Positions 966 through 40,451 of a stretch of DNA of 64,000 nucleotides are shown piece after piece. Made by a program: the position numbers and the translations under genes. Source of the stretch: Aquibaculum arenosum (GTDB lineage: Bacteria; Pseudomonadota; Alphaproteobacteria; Kiloniellales; DSM-21159); assembly GCF_029222965.1 (NCBI RefSeq), contig NZ_JARHUD010000006.1, forward strand, positions 186,001 to 250,000. Direction: 5' to 3'. The stretch's first letter is position 1. Each line of letters begins with the position of its first letter. The notes under the pieces were generated by a model, which made no database searches, had not been told where the DNA came from, and saw only the letters and a program-made list of their open reading frames with translations.

Positions 966-2144
966 ATGAAGAAGCACCTTTCCATGCTGGCCGGTGGCGT
1001 GGCCGCTGCCGCTTTTGCGGCGGGCGCGGCTCAGGCCGAGTCGGTCAAGATCGGCTATATGGCCACCTTCTCCGGCCCGCCGGGCGTGCTCGGCGAACAC
1101 AACCGTGACGGTTTCCAGCTCGGCATCGAGCATCTGGGCGGTACGCTGGGGGACCTCGACGTCGAGATCATCGAGGCCGACGATCAGCTCAAGCCCGACG
1201 TCGGCAAGCAGATCATCGACCGCTACCTCCAGTCGGACCGCGTCGACTTCGTGGTCGGCATCATCTTTTCCAATGTGATGATGGCGGTCTATGAAGACGT
1301 GGTCGGCAGCGAGACCTTCCTGATCTCCACCAACGCGGGGCCCTCGCCCATCGCCGGGGAGAGCTGCTCCGAGTACTTCTTCTCCACCTCCTGGCAGAAC
1401 GACCAATTGCATGGGGCCGCTGGTCTGCAGGCGGTGAACGACGGCGTCGAGTCCGCCTTCCTCATCGCGCCGAACTATCAGGCCGGACGCGATGCCATGG
1501 CCGGTTTCAAGCGCGAGTTCGAGGGCCACGGCACCATCGCCGGCGAGATCCTCACGCAGATCAACCAGCCGGACTACTCGGCTGAAATTGCCCAGATCGC
1601 TGCGGCCGGTGCGGATGCGGTCTTCATCTTCCTGCCTGGCGGCATGGGGGTGAACTTCGTCAAGCAGTACGCCTCTTCCGGCATCGACTTGCCGCTCTAC
1701 TCCGGCTCCACCGTCGACGGCACCACCCTGCCGGCGATCGGCGAGGAGATGATGGGCGGCTACTCCAGCCCCAACTTCTGGGCCCCGGACATGGACACGC
1801 CGGTCAATCAGCGCTTCATGGCCGACTTCGAGGAGCGCTTCGGCTACATCCCCTCGGTCTATGCAGCCCAAGGCTACGACGCAGCCGCGCTCATCGACTC
1901 GGCGATCCGTGCGGTGGATGGCGACCTCTCCAACAAGGAAGGTATGCGCGACGCCATGCGCCAGGCGGACTTCGAATCGATCCGCGGCGACTTCCAGTTC
2001 GGCAACAACCACTTCCCGGTCCAGGACTGGTACGCCGGAGAGGTGGTCTCCGACGACCAGGGCCGCGCCACCATCGCCCTGGGCGACATGGTGGCCGAAG
2101 ACTTCCAGGACGCCTATCACCAGGACTGCGCAATGCAGTGGTAA
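966..2144 (+). CDS. ABC transporter substrate-binding protein, branched-chain amino-acid/amide type
   Basis: 392 aa periplasmic type-I binding protein (LivK/AmiC family). Residues 1-24 are a Sec signal peptide with an AQA cleavage site; the mature protein opens with SVKIGYMATFSGPPGVLGEHN, the typical first strand. GGTLGDLDVEIIEADDQ and FVVGIIFSNVMMAV follow the two-lobed fold. It is the first gene of a five-gene importer operon (SBP, two permeases, two ATPases). The ATG at 966 follows GGGGGACGTGAA. Ligands of the family include leucine, amides, urea, aromatic acids and others; the sequence does not settle which. The position next to ectoine and D-amino-acid genes suggests an amino-acid derivative. 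Confidence 0.9.
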   Translation: MKKHLSMLAGGVAAAAFAAGAAQAESVKIGYMATFSGPPGVLGEHNRDGFQLGIEHLGGTLGDLDVEIIEADDQLKPDVGKQIIDRYLQSDRVDFVVGIIFSNVMMAVYEDVVGSETFLISTNAGPSPIAGESCSEYFFSTSWQNDQLHGAAGLQAVNDGVESAFLIAPNYQAGRDAMAGFKREFEGHGTIAGEILTQINQPDYSAEIAQIAAAGADAVFIFLPGGMGVNFVKQYASSGIDLPLYSGSTVDGTTLPAIGEEMMGGYSSPNFWAPDMDTPVNQRFMADFEERFGYIPSVYAAQGYDAAALIDSAIRAVDGDLSNKEGMRDAMRQADFESIRGDFQFGNNHFPVQDWYAGEVVSDDQGRATIALGDMVAEDFQDAYHQDCAMQW

Positions 2145-2186
2145 GGCTTCGGGCAGCGTATGCCGCCCGGTCTCTCGTAACGCCAC

Positions 2187-2216
2187 GGGCGAAGGATCCG
2201 CGCCGATCCTTCGCCC
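2187..2216 (+). promoter_or_regulatory. Intercistronic stem-loop after the LIV binding-protein gene
   Basis: A perfect 12-bp stem (GGGCGAAGGATC at 2187-2198 with GATCCTTCGCCC at 2205-2216) with a 6-base loop lies in the 112-bp gap between the binding protein and the first permease. No clean T-run follows directly. A hairpin here commonly protects the upstream mRNA or partly terminates it, so that the binding protein is made in excess over the permeases. That role is inferred. Confidence 0.7.
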
Positions 2217-2256
2217 GCGCGGCCTTTCTGTTCCTTTCGCGTGAGCCGCTGCTGCG

Positions 2257-3180
2257 ATGTCCACCACGCTGCTGCTGATCCAGACGCTCAACGGCCTTCA
2301 GTTCGGCGTGATGCTGTTCCTGATGGCCGCTGGACTGACTCTGGTCTTCGGCATCATGAACCTCGTCAATCTGGCGCACGGTTCGCTCTACATGATGGGC
2401 GCTTACTTCGCCGCTGCCGCCACTGCCTGGACCGGCAACCCGCTGCTGGGCATCCTCTTCGCCATTCCGGCGACACTGCTGCTGGGCGTGGTGGTGGAGT
2501 TCATCACCCTGCGCACGCTCTATCAGCGCGACCACCTGGACCAGGTGCTCTGCACCTTCGGCCTCATCCTCTTTTTCAACGAGCTGGCGCGCGTGCTCTG
2601 GGGGTCGGCCGCCATCCCCATGGCCATTCCCGAGGCACTCACCGGTTTCGTCACCATCATCCCGGGGCTGATCTATCCCAAGTGGCGGCTGGCGATCATC
2701 CTGGTGGGCCTGCTGGTGGCGCTGCTGCTCTACCTGCTGATCTCCCACACCCGCCTGGGCATGCTGATCCGCGCCGGGGCCAGCAACCGGCCCATGGTCG
2801 GGGCGCTGGGCGTGAACATCTCCCTGCTCTTCACCCTGGTATTCGGGCTGGGGGCCGCGCTTGCCGGCCTGGCCGGGGCCATGGTGGCGCCGCTGCTTTC
2901 GGTGGAACCGGGCATGGGCGACCCGATCCTGATCCTGACCTTCGTGGTCATCGTCATCGGCGGCATCGGATCGATCCGCGGCGCCTTCATCGCTTCGCTG
3001 CTGGTCGGCCTGATCGACACGGTCGGCCGCTCCTTCCTCCCGGCCCTGCTGCGCGAACTCTTCCAAACGCAATCAGCCAACACCATCGGGGCGGCGCTCG
3101 CCTCCATGCTGATCTACATCCTCATGGCCGCGGTGCTCTTCTTCCGGCCGCGCGGGCTCTTCCCGCCGAAGGGGCGCTGA
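2257..3180 (+). CDS. livH: LIV-type ABC transporter permease (LivH family)
   Basis: 307 aa, about eight hydrophobic segments. The N-terminus MSTTLLLIQTLNGLQFGVML and the block GLTLVFGIMNLVNLAHGSLY are hallmarks of LivH permeases; the EAA-like loop is seen around SNRPMVGALGVNISLLF, and VIVIGGIGSIRGAFIASLLVG lies near the end. It forms the inner-membrane channel with the LivM protein encoded 3 bp downstream. The ATG at 2257 has only a weak ribosome site, so expression may depend on the hairpin region before it. Confidence 0.92.
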   Translation: MSTTLLLIQTLNGLQFGVMLFLMAAGLTLVFGIMNLVNLAHGSLYMMGAYFAAAATAWTGNPLLGILFAIPATLLLGVVVEFITLRTLYQRDHLDQVLCTFGLILFFNELARVLWGSAAIPMAIPEALTGFVTIIPGLIYPKWRLAIILVGLLVALLLYLLISHTRLGMLIRAGASNRPMVGALGVNISLLFTLVFGLGAALAGLAGAMVAPLLSVEPGMGDPILILTFVVIVIGGIGSIRGAFIASLLVGLIDTVGRSFLPALLRELFQTQSANTIGAALASMLIYILMAAVLFFRPRGLFPPKGR

Positions 3181-3183
3181 GCC

Positions 3184-4149
3184 ATGCGCCTTGATCTGCG
3201 GACCATCACCGTGATCGTCGTCCTGGCCGGGCTCGCCTTGATGCCGCTGCTCGCCTGGGCGGTGGACGAGCCCTACTGGCTGCGCTTCTGGTCGCGGGTC
3301 ATGATCCTCGCGCTCGCCGCCGTCGGCGTGAACCTCATTCTGGGATTCGGCGGCATGGTGAGCTTCGGTCACGCCATGTACATCGCCATCGGCGCCTATG
3401 CCGTGGGCGCACTGCGCTTTCACGGCGTTGAAGGTGGCCTGCCGGACCTGCTGTTAGCCGTCGGCGCCGGTGCGTTGGTGGCGCTGATCATCGGGGCAAT
3501 CTGCCTGCGCACCGCCGGCATCTACTTCATCATGATCACGCTGGCCTTCGCGCAGATGACCTACTTCTTCTTCATCAGCCAGGAACAGTATGGCGGCGAC
3601 GACGGCATGCGCATCGAGGGCGGCACGCGGCTGGGCCCGCTGGACCTCTCCAACGACGCAACCCTCTATTACGCCACCTTCCTGCTGCTCTGCGGCGCGC
3701 TGCTGGTGAGCTGGCGCCTGGTGAATTCGCGCTTCGGCATGGTGATCCGCGGCGCGCGCTCCAATGAGCAGCGCATGACCGCCCTGGGATTCCCGACCTA
3801 CCGCTACCGCCTGACCGCCTATGTGATCTCGGCCGTGATCTGCGCCATCGCCGGGGCGCTCCTGGCCAATCTCACGCTCTATGTCTCCCCGGCCTACACC
3901 CACTGGACTCGCTCTGGCGAGCTTTTGATCATGGTGATCTTGGGCGGGCTGGGCAGCCTCTTCGGACCGGTTCTCGGCGCCATCGCGCTGCTGCTGCTCG
4001 AAGACGTGATCGCCCACTTCACCCGCCACTGGCAGCTCTTCCTGGGGCCGATCCTCATTCTCGTGGTGATCTTCGCGCGCGAGGGCCTCTTCGGCCTGCT
4101 GACCCCGCGGCGCCAACGCAGCCATACGGCAGGAGGCTCCCATGGCTGA
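3184..4149 (+). CDS. livM: LIV-type ABC transporter permease (LivM family)
   Basis: 321 aa polytopic membrane protein. It has the LivM signature AVGVNLILGFGGMVSFGHAM near residue 45 and the C-terminal block MVILGGLGSLFGPVLGAIAL. It pairs with the LivH permease to form the channel. It starts 3 bp after livH and overlaps livG by 8 bp, which indicates translational coupling. Confidence 0.92.
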   Translation: MRLDLRTITVIVVLAGLALMPLLAWAVDEPYWLRFWSRVMILALAAVGVNLILGFGGMVSFGHAMYIAIGAYAVGALRFHGVEGGLPDLLLAVGAGALVALIIGAICLRTAGIYFIMITLAFAQMTYFFFISQEQYGGDDGMRIEGGTRLGPLDLSNDATLYYATFLLLCGALLVSWRLVNSRFGMVIRGARSNEQRMTALGFPTYRYRLTAYVISAVICAIAGALLANLTLYVSPAYTHWTRSGELLIMVILGGLGSLFGPVLGAIALLLLEDVIAHFTRHWQLFLGPILILVVIFAREGLFGLLTPRRQRSHTAGGSHG

Positions 4150-34021: not shown

Positions 34022-37000
34022 ATGATCCTCGACCCTGCTCTCGCCCAGGCGGGCCCCCTGCGTGAAGCCCTGCGGACCGACACCCGCGCCGACGAGACCC
34101 GGGTGGTGCGCCGCCTGCTTTCGGAAGCGGAACTGCCCAGCGCCGCCGTCGATCGCATCGGCAGCCAGGCCCGCGCCCTGGTGGAAGCGGTGCGGCGCTC
34201 GCGCATCGGACAGGGCGGGATCGACGCCTTCATGCATGAGTACGAACTCTCCTCCAAGGAGGGCATCGTGCTGATGTGCCTGGCCGAGGCCATGCTGCGC
34301 GTGCCCGATTCCTACACCGTGGACAAGCTGATCGAGGACAAGATCGGCGCGGCCGAGTGGGAGCGCCATCTGGGGCACAGCGAGTCCCTCTTCGTGAACG
34401 CCTCGACCTGGGCGCTGATGCTGACGGGCCGGGTGGTGCGCCTGGAGGAGGAAGAACGCCGCGACGCCCGCGGTGTCCTGCGCCGGCTGATTCACCGCTC
34501 CGGCGAGCCGGTCATCCGCAGCGCCGTGCGCCAGGCCATGCGCATCCTCGGCCGCCAGTTCGTCATGGGCCGGACGATCAAGGAGGCCACCGAGCGCGCG
34601 CGCAGCCAGGAAGGCAAGGGCTATCGCTATTCCTACGACATGCTGGGCGAAGCCGCGCGGACCATGGCCGATGCCGAGCGCTACTTCAAATCCTATCGCG
34701 ACGCCATCGCCGCCATCGGCAAGGCCGCCGCGGGCAAGGGGCCGATCGAGGCACCGGGCATCTCGGTCAAGCTCTCCGCCTTGCATCCGCGCTATGAGTT
34801 CGCTCAGCGCGACCGGGTGATGAACGAACTGGTGCCGCGCCTGAAGACGCTCTGCCTCGACGCCAAGAAGCATGACATCAATCTCTGCGTCGATGCCGAA
34901 GAGGCCGAGCGCCTGGACCTCTCGCTCGATGTGCTCGAGGCGGTCTCCGGCGACCCGGACCTCAAGGGCTGGAACGGCTTCGGGCTGGCGGTCCAGGCCT
35001 ATCAGAAGCGGGCCTCGCGGCTCATCGACTGGTTGGCCGACATGGCCCACCGGCACGAGCGGCGCCTGATGGTGCGCCTGGTCAAGGGCGCCTACTGGGA
35101 CACTGAGATCAAGCGCGCCCAGGAGCGCGGGCACGCAGGCTATCCGGTCTTCACCCGCAAGGCCTCCACTGACGTGTCCTATCTGGCCTGTGCCCGGAAG
35201 TTGCTGGCCGAGCGCGATGCCTTTTACCCGCAGTTCGCCACCCACAACGCCCACACCCTGGCCGCCGTGCTGGAAATGGCGGGCGACCGGGATGACTACG
35301 AGTTCCAGCGCCTGCACGGCATGGGTGAAGCGCTCTACGAGGAGATCGTCGGCGCGGACAAGCTGAACCGCCCCTGCCGCATCTATGCGCCGGTGGGCAG
35401 CCATGAGGACCTGCTGGCCTACCTGGTCCGGCGTCTGCTGGAGAACGGCGCCAACACCTCTTTCGTCAACCGCATCCAGGACGAGGCGTTGCCCATCGAG
35501 GAGATCGTCGCCGACCCCGTCGCCCGGGTGCGCGGCCTGACACAGATCCCCCATCCGCACATTCCCCTGCCGGAAAGGCTCTTCGGGGAGGGTCGGCGCA
35601 ACTCCGCTGGTCTGGACCTCTGGGCCGCCGAGGAACTGGTGCCGCTGGGCAAGGCCATGGCCAAGGCGGCCGAAAGCGGCTGGGAGGCAGCACCCCTGGT
35701 CGGGGGCCGTGCCCTCGAGGGGCCGAAGCGCGAAGTGCGCAACCCCGCCAACCGCAAGCAACTGGTGGGCCATGTGGTGGACGCCACACCCGAACAGGCG
35801 CAGCAGGCACTGGCCCGGGCTCAGCGCGCCTGGTTCGACTGGAACGCCACGCCGGCGGAAGAACGCGCCCGCTGCCTGGAACGCTACGCCGATCTCATGG
35901 AGGAGAACTGCGCTGAGCTAATGGCGCTCTGCACCCGCGAGGCCGGCAAGTCGGTGGCAGATGGCATCGCCGAGGTGCGCGAAGCGGTTGACTTCTGCCG
36001 CTACTACGCGCTGCGCGCACGCCAGGATTTCGCCGGGCCCCAGGCCCTGCCCGGCCCGACCGGCGAGCGCGACGAGATCCAGCTCGAAGGCCGCGGCGTC
36101 TTCCTGTGTATCAGTCCCTGGAACTTCCCCCTGGCGATCTTCACCGGACAGGTCGTCGCCGCCCTGGTCGCTGGCAACTGCGTGCTGGCGAAGCCGGCGG
36201 AGCAGACCTCCCTGATCGCCGCCGCGGCAACGCGCCTGCTGCACCGCGCCGGCATACCCGGCGATGTGCTGCAACTACTGCCAGGCGACGGTGCGGCTCT
36301 GGGCAAGACCCTGCTGCCCGACGAGCGGGTGGCCGGCGTAGCTTTTACCGGTTCCACGGCCACCGCCAAGCTGATCAACCGCACCCTGGCCGCGCGTGAC
36401 GGCGCCATCGTGCCGCTGATCGCCGAGACCGGCGGGCAGAACGCCATGATTGTTGATTCCACCGCCCTGCCGGAGCAAGTGGTGAACGACATCCTCATCT
36501 CTTCCTTCCAGTCGGCGGGGCAGCGCTGTTCGGCACTGCGCGTCCTCTTCGTGCAGGACGAGGTGGCGGAACGCACGCTCACCATGCTGGAAGGCGCGAT
36601 GCAGGAATTGCGGGTCGGCAACCCGGCTGACCTGGCGACCGACGTGGGTCCGGTGATCGACGAGGAGGCCCGGGACATGCTCAACGGCCATGCCAAGCGC
36701 ATGAACCAGGAAGCCCGCCTGATCGCCCGCACCGCCCTGGGTCCCGACTGCGCCAACGGCACCTTCGTGGCGCCGGCCGCCTTTGAGATCGACTCGCTGT
36801 CGAGGCTGCAGGGCGAAGTCTTTGGACCAATCCTGCATGTGGTGCGCTACAAGGCAGACCGGCTGGATCAGGTGGTTGAGGCGATCAATGGCACTGGCTT
36901 CGGCCTCACCTTCGGGCTGCACACCCGCATCGATTCCACCGTCGAATACCTCCGGCATCGCGTGCGGGCCGGCAATCACTACGTCAATCGCAACATGATC

Positions 37001-37177
37001 GGCGCCGTGGTCGGGGTACAGCCCTTCGGCGGCGAAGGCCTCTCCGGCACCGGCCCCAAGGCGGGCGGACCACGCTACCTGCACCGCTTCGCCACCGAGC
37101 GCGTCATTTCCATCGACACCACGGCCGCGGGCGGTAATGCCTCTCTCATGTCATTGGACGAGGAACTGCCGGTCTGA
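34022..37177 (+). CDS. putA: Bifunctional proline dehydrogenase / glutamate semialdehyde dehydrogenase
   Basis: 1051 aa. Residues about 85-470 are the FAD-dependent proline dehydrogenase barrel (RLVKGAYWDTEIKRAQERG, FVNRIQDEALP). Residues about 540-1030 are the NAD-dependent aldehyde dehydrogenase, with catalytic Glu802 in ETGGQNAM and Cys836 in SAGQRCSALRVL, and PFGGEGLSGTGPKAGGPRYL near the end. It converts proline to glutamate in two steps by channelling. It lacks the ribbon-helix-helix DNA-binding domain found in E. coli PutA, consistent with control by the divergent PutR. Confidence 0.95.
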   Translation: MILDPALAQAGPLREALRTDTRADETRVVRRLLSEAELPSAAVDRIGSQARALVEAVRRSRIGQGGIDAFMHEYELSSKEGIVLMCLAEAMLRVPDSYTVDKLIEDKIGAAEWERHLGHSESLFVNASTWALMLTGRVVRLEEEERRDARGVLRRLIHRSGEPVIRSAVRQAMRILGRQFVMGRTIKEATERARSQEGKGYRYSYDMLGEAARTMADAERYFKSYRDAIAAIGKAAAGKGPIEAPGISVKLSALHPRYEFAQRDRVMNELVPRLKTLCLDAKKHDINLCVDAEEAERLDLSLDVLEAVSGDPDLKGWNGFGLAVQAYQKRASRLIDWLADMAHRHERRLMVRLVKGAYWDTEIKRAQERGHAGYPVFTRKASTDVSYLACARKLLAERDAFYPQFATHNAHTLAAVLEMAGDRDDYEFQRLHGMGEALYEEIVGADKLNRPCRIYAPVGSHEDLLAYLVRRLLENGANTSFVNRIQDEALPIEEIVADPVARVRGLTQIPHPHIPLPERLFGEGRRNSAGLDLWAAEELVPLGKAMAKAAESGWEAAPLVGGRALEGPKREVRNPANRKQLVGHVVDATPEQAQQALARAQRAWFDWNATPAEERARCLERYADLMEENCAELMALCTREAGKSVADGIAEVREAVDFCRYYALRARQDFAGPQALPGPTGERDEIQLEGRGVFLCISPWNFPLAIFTGQVVAALVAGNCVLAKPAEQTSLIAAAATRLLHRAGIPGDVLQLLPGDGAALGKTLLPDERVAGVAFTGSTATAKLINRTLAARDGAIVPLIAETGGQNAMIVDSTALPEQVVNDILISSFQSAGQRCSALRVLFVQDEVAERTLTMLEGAMQELRVGNPADLATDVGPVIDEEARDMLNGHAKRMNQEARLIARTALGPDCANGTFVAPAAFEIDSLSRLQGEVFGPILHVVRYKADRLDQVVEAINGTGFGLTFGLHTRIDSTVEYLRHRVRAGNHYVNRNMIGAVVGVQPFGGEGLSGTGPKAGGPRYLHRFATERVISIDTTAAGGNASLMSLDEELPV

Positions 37178-37279
37178 GGCGCGATCGATCAGGCCACCCT
37201 CTGAAACAGGAAGATTGATTCCCCGCGGTGCACTGGCCAATCTGCTTCGCAGAACAGAACCAGGCTGGGGGACAGGGGC

Positions 37280-39343
37280 GTGGCAGAAGCAGCGGACGAG
37301 ACGCGCGGGCGCAGTTCGGGCACGAACAAATCAGGAATCCGACGGCGCGATTTTCTCGCTGGCGTCGGCGCCGCTGCTCTGGGCTCCGCCCTGCCCTTCT
37401 TCCCCCGCGCGGCCATCGCTGCCGGCAGCGGCGAAAGCGCACCCGCCGGCGCGGAGATCGCGCGCATCGGTATTTATCCGCCCATCGGCATCTGCCGTGT
37501 TGGCGGCAGTGATCAGTGGTTTCTGGCCCCGGAAGTGCCCGGCCTGCCGCCGCAGCCCGAAGGCGGCTTCAAGGACGGCGACCAGGCGATCAAGAAGCAG
37601 GCCCAGCGCTTTCGCCTCTATGCCTTCGACGCCGAGAACCGGGTGATCGGCGAGATCACCGCAGAAGAGGCGGAGATCGAGTGGGAGGTGCATGTCGCGA
37701 ACACCAAGGCGGCCTGGTACGGCTTCACCAACCCGCTGGACAACGGCGCGCTGGCACCGGGCATCCCGGGCCGGAAGCGCAACGACTACATCGTGCCCAA
37801 TACGGAGCGCGAGCGCATGTTGGTCATCGACGGCGGCGCCACCCGCATCGCCGGCGCGGGAACCAACCCGCGAGGTGACGATCCGGCCTATGCCATGAGC
37901 GATCGCTTCTTCGACCTGGAGGAGGTCGGCCTGGGCCACCTGCGCACGGACGACAATGGGCGCCTGCTCGTCGTGCCGCCGGACGGCCGCTCCGACAGCC
38001 CCAACGGCAGCCCGATCACCAACTTCGCCGACAACGACGGCTGGCACGACGACTGGTGCGACGGACCGGTCTCGGCCCGGGTGCGCCTGCCCGACGGGCG
38101 CAGCCTGGAGGCGGAGCATGCCTGGGTCGCCTGTGCCGGACCCAACTTCGCGCCGGAAATTCCGCCGATCACCACGCTCTACGACACCATCGAGGACCTG
38201 AACCTGCGCGAGGGCTGGCGCGAGGCGCCGGCACTGCCGCTGTCCTTCCGCGAGCACATCTATCCCATCTTCCATCGCCTGGCGCTGATGGAGTGGGTCT
38301 CCGCCGCAGCGCATTTGCGCCAGGGCTGGCTCGACATCGGCGACTTTTCCGACCCCGACTACCTGGCGCGCCTAGCCGTCCCCGAGGAGGACAACGCCGC
38401 CTTCCGTCGCTCGGTCTTCGAGAAGTTCCGCAACCCGCGGGCTCAGGGCGAGGACGCCTTCCGCGAGGAGCAGCACAAGCTGCCCTACATGCTGGGCGAC
38501 GGCATCAACTACAGCGGCAGCCCGCTCTTCTGGTTCCAGTTCCCCGAACGGCAGTACGGCTTCCTGGAAGCCTGGGCGGCGGGTGATTTCGTGGACGATC
38601 TGCACGAGCCGGAGGCCGAAGCGATTGTGACACTGGAGGATATCCCCATCGCCCGCCAGCCGGAGGCCCTCACCCGCGCGGCCCTGGAGCCCTGCTCCGG
38701 CGGCGCCTTCCATCCCGGCGTCGAGCTGACCTATTACCTGCGCCACCGGGAAATGTACGCCATCGCTCACGGCCAGAGCCGCGAGCCCTTCCGCATCGCC
38801 CGGGGCAAGCGCGAGAGCCTGATCCAGGACATCGGCAGGCTGCTCACACCCGAGGCGGCTTTCGCGGGCGGCAACGGCGCACCGCCACCGATCGGCCCGC
38901 AGATGCCGGGCGACCTGACCCGCTGGATGGGCCTGCCCTGGCAGTGCGACGTCTTCAGCTGCCAGCAGGTGGCGCTCCAGAGCGACTTCCCCACAGCCGT
39001 CTGGTGGCCGGCGCTGATCCCGGTGGACGTGCTGCAGGAGGAATTTTACGAGCAGATCATGCGCGACGACCTTGATGCTGAGCAACGCCAGCGCTTCTTT
39101 CAGCATCGTGTTGCCTGGACCCGTGGCGTGGCCGGGATCGGCTATCACGCCGAAGCCAGCTACACCGATGGCATCGTCAGCATGATCCAGCTTTGGGAGC
39201 GCATGGGTTTCGTGGTGAAGCGCCCGGGCCCGCAGGATGCGCAGCGCCCGACCGGGCTGCCCAGCGAGCTGTTCGTCGAGACCGGCCGCGGCTCCATGGA
39301 ACGGCGCACCGACTGGACAGCCTCGGATGGGCAGACGCTCTGA
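37280..39343 (+). CDS. LodA/GoxA-family CTQ-dependent oxidase with Tat signal
   Basis: 687 aa from a GTG start with a GGGG-rich site upstream. Residues 21-45 carry RRRDFLAGVGAAALGSALPF, a classic twin-arginine signal. The rest matches the LodA/GoxA quinoprotein oxidases: EIARIGIYPPIGICRVGGSD at the start, WEVHVANTKAAWYGFTNPLD, PCSGGAFHPGVELTYYLR (Cys472) and a Trp-rich stretch RWMGLPWQCDVFSCQQ with TAVWWPALIPVDVL. The family builds a cysteine-tryptophylquinone cofactor from one Cys and one Trp, assisted by a flavoprotein (LodB), encoded next. It oxidises an amine or amino acid, releasing H2O2. I cannot tell which Trp is used. Confidence 0.85.
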   Translation: MAEAADETRGRSSGTNKSGIRRRDFLAGVGAAALGSALPFFPRAAIAAGSGESAPAGAEIARIGIYPPIGICRVGGSDQWFLAPEVPGLPPQPEGGFKDGDQAIKKQAQRFRLYAFDAENRVIGEITAEEAEIEWEVHVANTKAAWYGFTNPLDNGALAPGIPGRKRNDYIVPNTERERMLVIDGGATRIAGAGTNPRGDDPAYAMSDRFFDLEEVGLGHLRTDDNGRLLVVPPDGRSDSPNGSPITNFADNDGWHDDWCDGPVSARVRLPDGRSLEAEHAWVACAGPNFAPEIPPITTLYDTIEDLNLREGWREAPALPLSFREHIYPIFHRLALMEWVSAAAHLRQGWLDIGDFSDPDYLARLAVPEEDNAAFRRSVFEKFRNPRAQGEDAFREEQHKLPYMLGDGINYSGSPLFWFQFPERQYGFLEAWAAGDFVDDLHEPEAEAIVTLEDIPIARQPEALTRAALEPCSGGAFHPGVELTYYLRHREMYAIAHGQSREPFRIARGKRESLIQDIGRLLTPEAAFAGGNGAPPPIGPQMPGDLTRWMGLPWQCDVFSCQQVALQSDFPTAVWWPALIPVDVLQEEFYEQIMRDDLDAEQRQRFFQHRVAWTRGVAGIGYHAEASYTDGIVSMIQLWERMGFVVKRPGPQDAQRPTGLPSELFVETGRGSMERRTDWTASDGQTL

Positions 39344-40451
39344 GCCGGATGTGACCGAGCGGCCTCCCGTAGCAGTGATCGGCGGCGGCATCGCCGGCGC
39401 GGCCGCCTGTATCTCCCTGGCCCGGGCGGGTTGCCCGCCGCTCTGGCTCGCCCCGCCGGCAGAGCAGCAGGCGCAGGCTTTCGGCGAATCCCTGGGGCCG
39501 GGCGCCAGGCCCATCCTCAAAGCCCTAGGCCTGGAAGACCTGCTCACCTCCAGCGCTCACCGCCCTGCCAACGCCAGCTTTTCCGCCTGGGGCAGCGATC
39601 GCCTCACCGCCCGCCACGCCGCACTGCAGGCGGGGCCGCCGGGCTACGTGCTCGACCGCCTGCGCTTCGAGGCCGATCTTCGTGCCCGCGCCGCGGCCCT
39701 TGCGGAACGGCTTCCCCATCGCCTGAGCAGCGCGGCGGGCGAGGACCAGGTCTGGCGCTTGCACCTTTCCAACGGGGAAAACTGCACCGCCTCCGCAGTG
39801 GTGGACGCGAGCGGCCGCGCCGCCGTTTTCGCCCGCCGGCACAGCCCCTTGATCCGCCGCGATCGCCTGATCGCTGCGGCCACCCTGCTGCGGCAGCACG
39901 ACCTTTCCGTCGAGCCGACCCGGGCCACGCTCATCGAGGCCTTGCCGGACGGCTGGCTCTACGCGGCGCTGCTACCCGATGAGGCGCTTTCGCTGGCCTA
40001 CTTCACCGATCCCGACCTGATGCCGGCCGGGATATCGCGCGACCCGCAGGTGCTCGCTGCTGTCCTGAAGCAGAGCCGCCACATCGCGCGCTGGATTGCG
40101 GAGGCCGGCTTTGTGCCTGAACGTCCGCCGCGCCTCTACAGCGCCGGCACCACGCGCATTGCCGCGCCCGTCGGACGCAACGGCAGGCTTCCGCCCTGGA
40201 TGGCGGTCGGCGATGCGGCCGCGGCTTTCGATCCGCTGTCTTCCCACGGCATGACGACAGCGCTCTGGGGCGGCTGGAAGGCGGGCGAAGCCATGGCTGC
40301 CGCCCTGTCCGGCGATCGCAGTGGGCTGGACGCCTATGCCGCTGCGCTCGCCGAAGGCATTGCCGACTTCGACCGACAGCAGGCGCGCTTCTACGCCGCC
40401 GAGACCCGCTTTCCCAACAGCCGCTTCTGGGCTGCGCGTCACCCGAACTGA
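39327..40451 (+). CDS. LodB/GoxB-type flavoprotein, CTQ cofactor maturase
   Basis: 374 aa from the ATG at 39327, overlapping the oxidase stop by 17 bp; an in-frame GTG at 39351 gives a start 8 codons later. Neither has a clear ribosome site, so coupling to the previous gene is likely. The FAD Rossmann motif is VIGGGIAGAAACISLARAG; DRLRFEADLRARA, and GDAAAAFDPLSSHGMTTAL near residue 290 match the tryptophan-halogenase-like flavin monooxygenase fold of LodB and GoxB. Such proteins act in the cytoplasm to create the quinone cofactor of the partner oxidase. Confidence 0.85.
   Translation: MGRRSEPDVTERPPVAVIGGGIAGAAACISLARAGCPPLWLAPPAEQQAQAFGESLGPGARPILKALGLEDLLTSSAHRPANASFSAWGSDRLTARHAALQAGPPGYVLDRLRFEADLRARAAALAERLPHRLSSAAGEDQVWRLHLSNGENCTASAVVDASGRAAVFARRHSPLIRRDRLIAAATLLRQHDLSVEPTRATLIEALPDGWLYAALLPDEALSLAYFTDPDLMPAGISRDPQVLAAVLKQSRHIARWIAEAGFVPERPPRLYSAGTTRIAAPVGRNGRLPPWMAVGDAAAAFDPLSSHGMTTALWGGWKAGEAMAAALSGDRSGLDAYAAALAEGIADFDRQQARFYAAETRFPNSRFWAARHPN

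Follow-up and report, generated by a model that had tools for sequence, protein, structure and literature searches.

The window analysed here, a stretch of 64,000 nucleotides from Aquibaculum arenosum, carries at 37280-40451 an ordinary bacterial goxAB pair: a glycine oxidase whose cofactor is self-made, and the partner that helps to build it (Table 1). We hold it to be very likely that the pair encodes a CTQ-dependent glycine oxidase and a dedicated maturase, and that CTQ is built in the cytoplasm before export by the Tat system. A sequence-only reading of the same DNA had recognized a LodA-type CTQ oxidase beside a LodB-like flavoprotein maturase; the CTQ family of the oxidase and the adjoining flavoprotein maturase both stand, and the names become GoxA and GoxB. 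The oxidase scores 1185.6 bits against the NCBIfam GoxA model NF038173 (cut-off 750), matching model positions 1-666 of 668, whereas the LodA model NF038172 gives 178.3 bits against a cut-off of 600, which rules out membership of LodA. The Pfam domains LodA_N and LodA_C occupy residues 66-285 and 418-566, and the best PDB matches are solved GoxA chains. Directly 3' of goxA, the maturase reaches 449.5 bits with the GoxB model NF038174 (cut-off 400) and 149.5 bits with the QhpG model, below the cut-off of 240. The open reading frame running from 39237 to 40451 was judged over-long for the maturase; its likely start is GTG 39351, with ATG 39327, which overlaps goxA, as the other candidate.

Table 1. 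Features of the goxAB pair in the window, and Rid-family genes following goxB in relatives (locus handle, then coordinates within that locus).
Feature	Coordinates	Strand	Evidence or remark
goxA, CTQ-dependent glycine oxidase precursor	37280..39343	+	687 aa, GTG start; NCBIfam NF038173; Pfam LodA_N, LodA_C
Tat signal, residues 20-47 (IRRRDFL, hydrophobic run, AIA cleavage site)	37337..37420	+	sequence, hydropathy; RRDFL conserved in relatives
D557, conserved Asp aligned to GoxA Asp678	38948-38950	+	alignment to 6byw, numbered by hand
C561, predicted CTQ cysteine	38960..38962	+	62/63 GoxA rows, 39/40 other LodA-like rows
W576, predicted CTQ tryptophan	39005..39007	+	62/63 GoxA rows, 38/40 others
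H623, GoxA-specific conserved histidine	39146..39148	+	62/63 GoxA rows, 0/40 others
goxB, flavoprotein glycine oxidase maturase	39351..40451	+	no signal peptide; NCBIfam NF038174; GxGxxG 10 residues from GTG
Rid-family gene after goxB, Lamprobacter	L036:8238-8696		
Rid-family gene after goxB, Devosia	L038:8186-8638		
Rid-family gene after goxB, alphaproteobacterium BAL199	L040:8147-8611		
Rid-family gene after goxB, Roseibium	L041:8157-8615		
Rid-family gene after goxB, Roseibium	L081:8153-8617		
Rid-family gene after goxB, Thalassobaculum	L043:8202-8672		

Conservation across the family points to the residues of the cofactor. The next-best conserved cysteine after C561 is C472, present in 52 of 63 GoxA rows and 33 of 40 others, and W576, chosen among several conserved tryptophans, is probably the CTQ tryptophan. 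The best solved match, 6byw and related GoxA entries, which we take to come from Pseudoalteromonas luteoviolacea, aligns with the window protein at the D-x-x-x-C pair; it differs in having 816 residues with insertions and a domain that begins at residue 7 without an N-terminal extension. The aspartate of this pair, Asp678 in GoxA, is discussed in PMC7876137.

Glycine, not lysine, is the expected substrate of the window GoxA, judging from family assignment and conserved residues. F249 is kept in all 63 GoxA rows and H478 in 62 of them; together with H623 these positions, which are active-site residues in solved GoxA, support the glycine oxidase assignment. Because that assignment is made from sequence here, the family name could overstate what this protein does, and the substrate could be another primary amine or amino acid. 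We regard this as unlikely, given the 1185.6-bit match to the GoxA equivalog, the conservation of F249, H478 and H623, and the high specificity for glycine of the Marinomonas mediterranea enzyme (PMC3948610).

The closest described counterpart is the M. mediterranea GoxA/GoxB pair (Marme_1655/Marme_1654; NF038173 and NF038174), which has the same gene order and a Tat signal and, likened by its published description, the same combination of a LodA-like oxidase with a LodB-like partner. The Marinomonas relatives in our sample (L028 and L032) are 63 and 62% identical to the window GoxA. The window pair differs from that of M. mediterranea in residing in an alphaproteobacterium and in having a putA neighbour not seen elsewhere. 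With the LodA/LodB lysine epsilon-oxidase it shares the LodA_N and LodA_C domains, the conserved cysteine and tryptophan and a LodB-like flavoprotein; it is set apart by its score, far below the LodA cut-off, and by its Tat signal, which other LodA-like proteins mostly lack.

That the segment RRRDFLAGVG and the hydrophobic run behind it form a twin-arginine signal, as proposed from the sequence alone, was borne out. The window GoxA begins MAEAADETRGRSSGTNKSGIRRRDFLAGVGAAALGSALPFFPRAAIAAGSGES, its first codon GTG being read as M, and residues 20-47 read IRRRDFLAGVGAAALGSALPFFPRAAIA. The twin arginines are residues 22-23 (nucleotides 37343-37348) and are followed by an uncharged hydrophobic run at residues 25-42, with a best 15-residue Kyte-Doolittle mean of 1.59. 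By the signal cleavage rule, an AIA-A type cleavage site is predicted near residue 47. The genome's own TatC scores 240.9 bits, so that twin-arginine motif, uncharged hydrophobic stretch and TatC are all present; Tat calls throughout were made by a regular expression with a hydropathy rule, standing in for a trained predictor. Were the twin-arginine segment left untranslated, GoxA would be cytoplasmic. The use of GTG as the sole common start codon speaks for such a reading, yet it has next to no chance of being correct. The frame extends back to 37205, and upstream of residue 86, which is already inside LodA_N, GTG 37280 stands alone among ATG, GTG and TTG codons; none of them lies between the twin arginines and that residue, so a start downstream of the motif does not agree with the sequence. 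The RRDFL block is also kept across distant relatives. Position 1 of the GoxA model matches residue 21 of the window protein, and the twin-arginine segment is thus part of the curated family model.

As already published, a Tat signal is nearly universal in the GoxA group; it is no oddity of this genome. The sequence-only reading had called it atypical of GoxA, a claim that does not survive the literature or the relatives. A Tat signal was reported in 2013 for the founding GoxA, Marme_1655 of M. mediterranea (PMC3948610), and a family survey of 2015 found a twin-arginine motif in all group II (GoxA group) proteins except three, describing the signal as a property of groups IIA and IIB (PMC4417212). 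The accessible part of PMC4699246 mentions neither a signal nor a twin-arginine motif. By our Tat rule, 62 of 63 distinct sampled GoxA relatives carry the signal, whereas it occurs in one of 39 N-terminal regions of other sampled LodA-like proteins; shuffled N-terminal regions were positive in 32 of 2140 cases (1.5%). Relatives were collected by a scan seeded with two conserved peptides, which gave 134 confirmed loci, of which the best 80 were kept. Sixty-seven rows above 700 bits (66 with Tat) became the 63 GoxA relatives (62 with Tat) after removal of the window copy (L003) and of L099, L100 and L102, whose cores are identical to L033, L021 and L037. Below 700 bits there were 45 rows, 40 of them with an N-terminal region (two with Tat), which became 39 (one with Tat) when L076, a truncated GoxA with Tat, was set aside; in fused LodA-like proteins the stretch before LodA_N was examined, which is not the true N-terminus. 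The larger sample strengthens the contrast: GoxA has Tat, and most of the other LodA-like oxidases in the sample do not. The main gain is that the lead on an unusual Tat signal is closed.

In a quick tree built from 71 rows, the 63 GoxA rows fall into a single clade with 99% SH-aLRT support, the outgroup rows being long-branched, and this clade contains every Tat-bearing row except one, L012. That locus encodes, at 1243-3450 on the minus strand, a LodA lysine epsilon-oxidase (NF038172, 666.1 bits against 600) with the Tat-like start SRREFLGLLAGAAATPVIG. It is the only Tat-positive member of the 39 non-GoxA regions, and its genome is the only one with LodA among 10 genomes of its order; its Tat-like start is perhaps an independent gain. 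The sole exception among the 63 GoxA relatives is that of Zwartia panacis (L071:5001-7001), in which KRDFL replaces RRDFL. A GoxA with a Tat signal, 61% identical to the window protein, was found on a 27.7 kb contig filed as viral in IMG/VR (L019:1007-2920), which is perhaps a misfiled bacterial contig or carries a host gene.

We propose that GoxA would fold in the cytoplasm and its tryptophan would gain a first hydroxyl, and that GoxB, with FAD, would add the second oxygen and the crosslink between C561 and W576. Folded GoxA would be exported by Tat, losing its signal at about residue 47, and outside the cytoplasm the mature enzyme would convert glycine to glyoxylate, ammonia and H2O2. Glycine oxidase activity of Marme_1655 was detected in culture supernatants, and the role of GoxB was assigned by similarity to LodB in the same 2013 paper (PMC3948610). 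PMC7876137 states that CTQ in GoxA requires GoxB, and it assigns the reactions of QhpG, the flavoprotein of quinohemoprotein amine dehydrogenase, to the cytoplasm. In the relatives, goxB adjoins goxA in 60 of 62 loci, the window included, and in the other two (L073 and L076) the contig ends inside goxA. The GoxB start was testable in 51 of the 63 distinct GoxA relatives; in 48 of these, a start codon precedes the FAD motif by 5-20 residues, and in none of the 51 does the upstream stretch resemble a Tat signal or a strongly hydrophobic one. Assembly of CTQ before Tat export is favoured because GoxB has no signal and is required, and because QhpG acts in the cytoplasm. The proposal of the sequence-only reading that the cofactor is built before export is thus sound in its logic, and TatC is present; we infer the order, maturation and then export, as we do glycine as the substrate of this protein.

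QhpG and its substrate QhpC offer the nearest parallel, since according to PMC7876137 that flavoprotein, too, acts in the cytoplasm before export, as proposed for GoxB. According to the same text, QhpC differs from GoxA in that it is a small subunit with crosslinks and leaves through an ABC transporter, and QhpG inserts both oxygens, while GoxB is proposed to add the second. The TTQ of methylamine dehydrogenase, as described there, is finished in the periplasm, a precedent for partly modified GoxA crossing by Tat and completing CTQ after export. This course we consider very improbable for GoxA, since GoxB is the required partner and carries no signal-like stretch in any testable case, and genes with a CXXCH motif are not common neighbours of goxAB: in the 25 neighbour clusters seen in at least four loci each, CXXCH fragments turned up in just two clusters, of four loci each, and otherwise as one stray fragment of 115. 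Maturation in the cytoplasm is the preferred course, and GoxA lends itself to the question of whether Tat would take a CTQ precursor that GoxB has yet to complete. The solved GoxA domain that begins at residue 7 and the three group II proteins without the motif indicate that Tat export is unnecessary for the chemistry itself.

Upstream of goxA lie putA (34022-37177) and a divergent Lrp/AsnC regulator, and downstream of goxAB, on the opposite strand, AtuA-like genes. The putA-goxA gap measures 102 bp (37178-37279), and 37100-37400 showed neither a terminator-like nor a promoter-like site; with such a short gap and no terminator-like site found, read-through from putA into goxA, giving a shared transcript in this genome, is possible. 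The placement beside proline catabolism, to which the sequence-only reading drew attention, looks accidental. No PutA match of at least 40% identity occurs in the other 82 loci, with flanks of at most 5 kb and often shorter, and the idea that the family is generally tied to proline catabolism was rejected on this count; six of these loci have weaker matches of 26-30%, which are taken as other aldehyde dehydrogenases. Within the order, goxA scores above cut-off in five of 61 genomes, this one included, and within the class in three of 385, again with this one; it is absent from the one congener searched. The host probably belongs to one family with Fodinicurvata and Tistlia: L100 and L099, loci of the same family, match L021 and L033 exactly in their GoxA cores.

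In six relatives, which form one clade with 100% SH-aLRT support, a Rid-family gene lies just 3' of goxB, an arrangement seen in 6 of 62 loci; the window has no Rid gene next to goxB. The six proteins score 81-99 bits against PF01042 (cut-off 27.3) and 90-100 bits against TIGR00004, below its cut-off of 106.25, and a hydrophobic N-terminal extension in each resembles, as judged by eye, a Sec signal. Since Rid proteins hydrolyse imines and an imine is the expected product of glycine oxidation, pairing an exported Rid with an exported oxidase would be sensible. Judged from its sequence, the protein could be an imine hydrolase that is exported and acts on what GoxA produces; if so, it would deal, outside the cytoplasm, with the imine that arises from glycine. 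A Rid-family protein with a Sec-like signal as the third gene of a GoxA clade may be new, as none of the literature matches listed links Rid with LodA, a quinoprotein or a glycine oxidase, or describes an exported Rid. We can suggest only tentatively, and with rather less than even confidence, that GoxA belongs to a dedicated extracytoplasmic amino-acid oxidation module in which CTQ assembly by GoxB would be a checkpoint before Tat and to which one clade would have added a Sec-exported Rid imine hydrolase. The genome of A. arenosum itself encodes six proteins that match PF01042.
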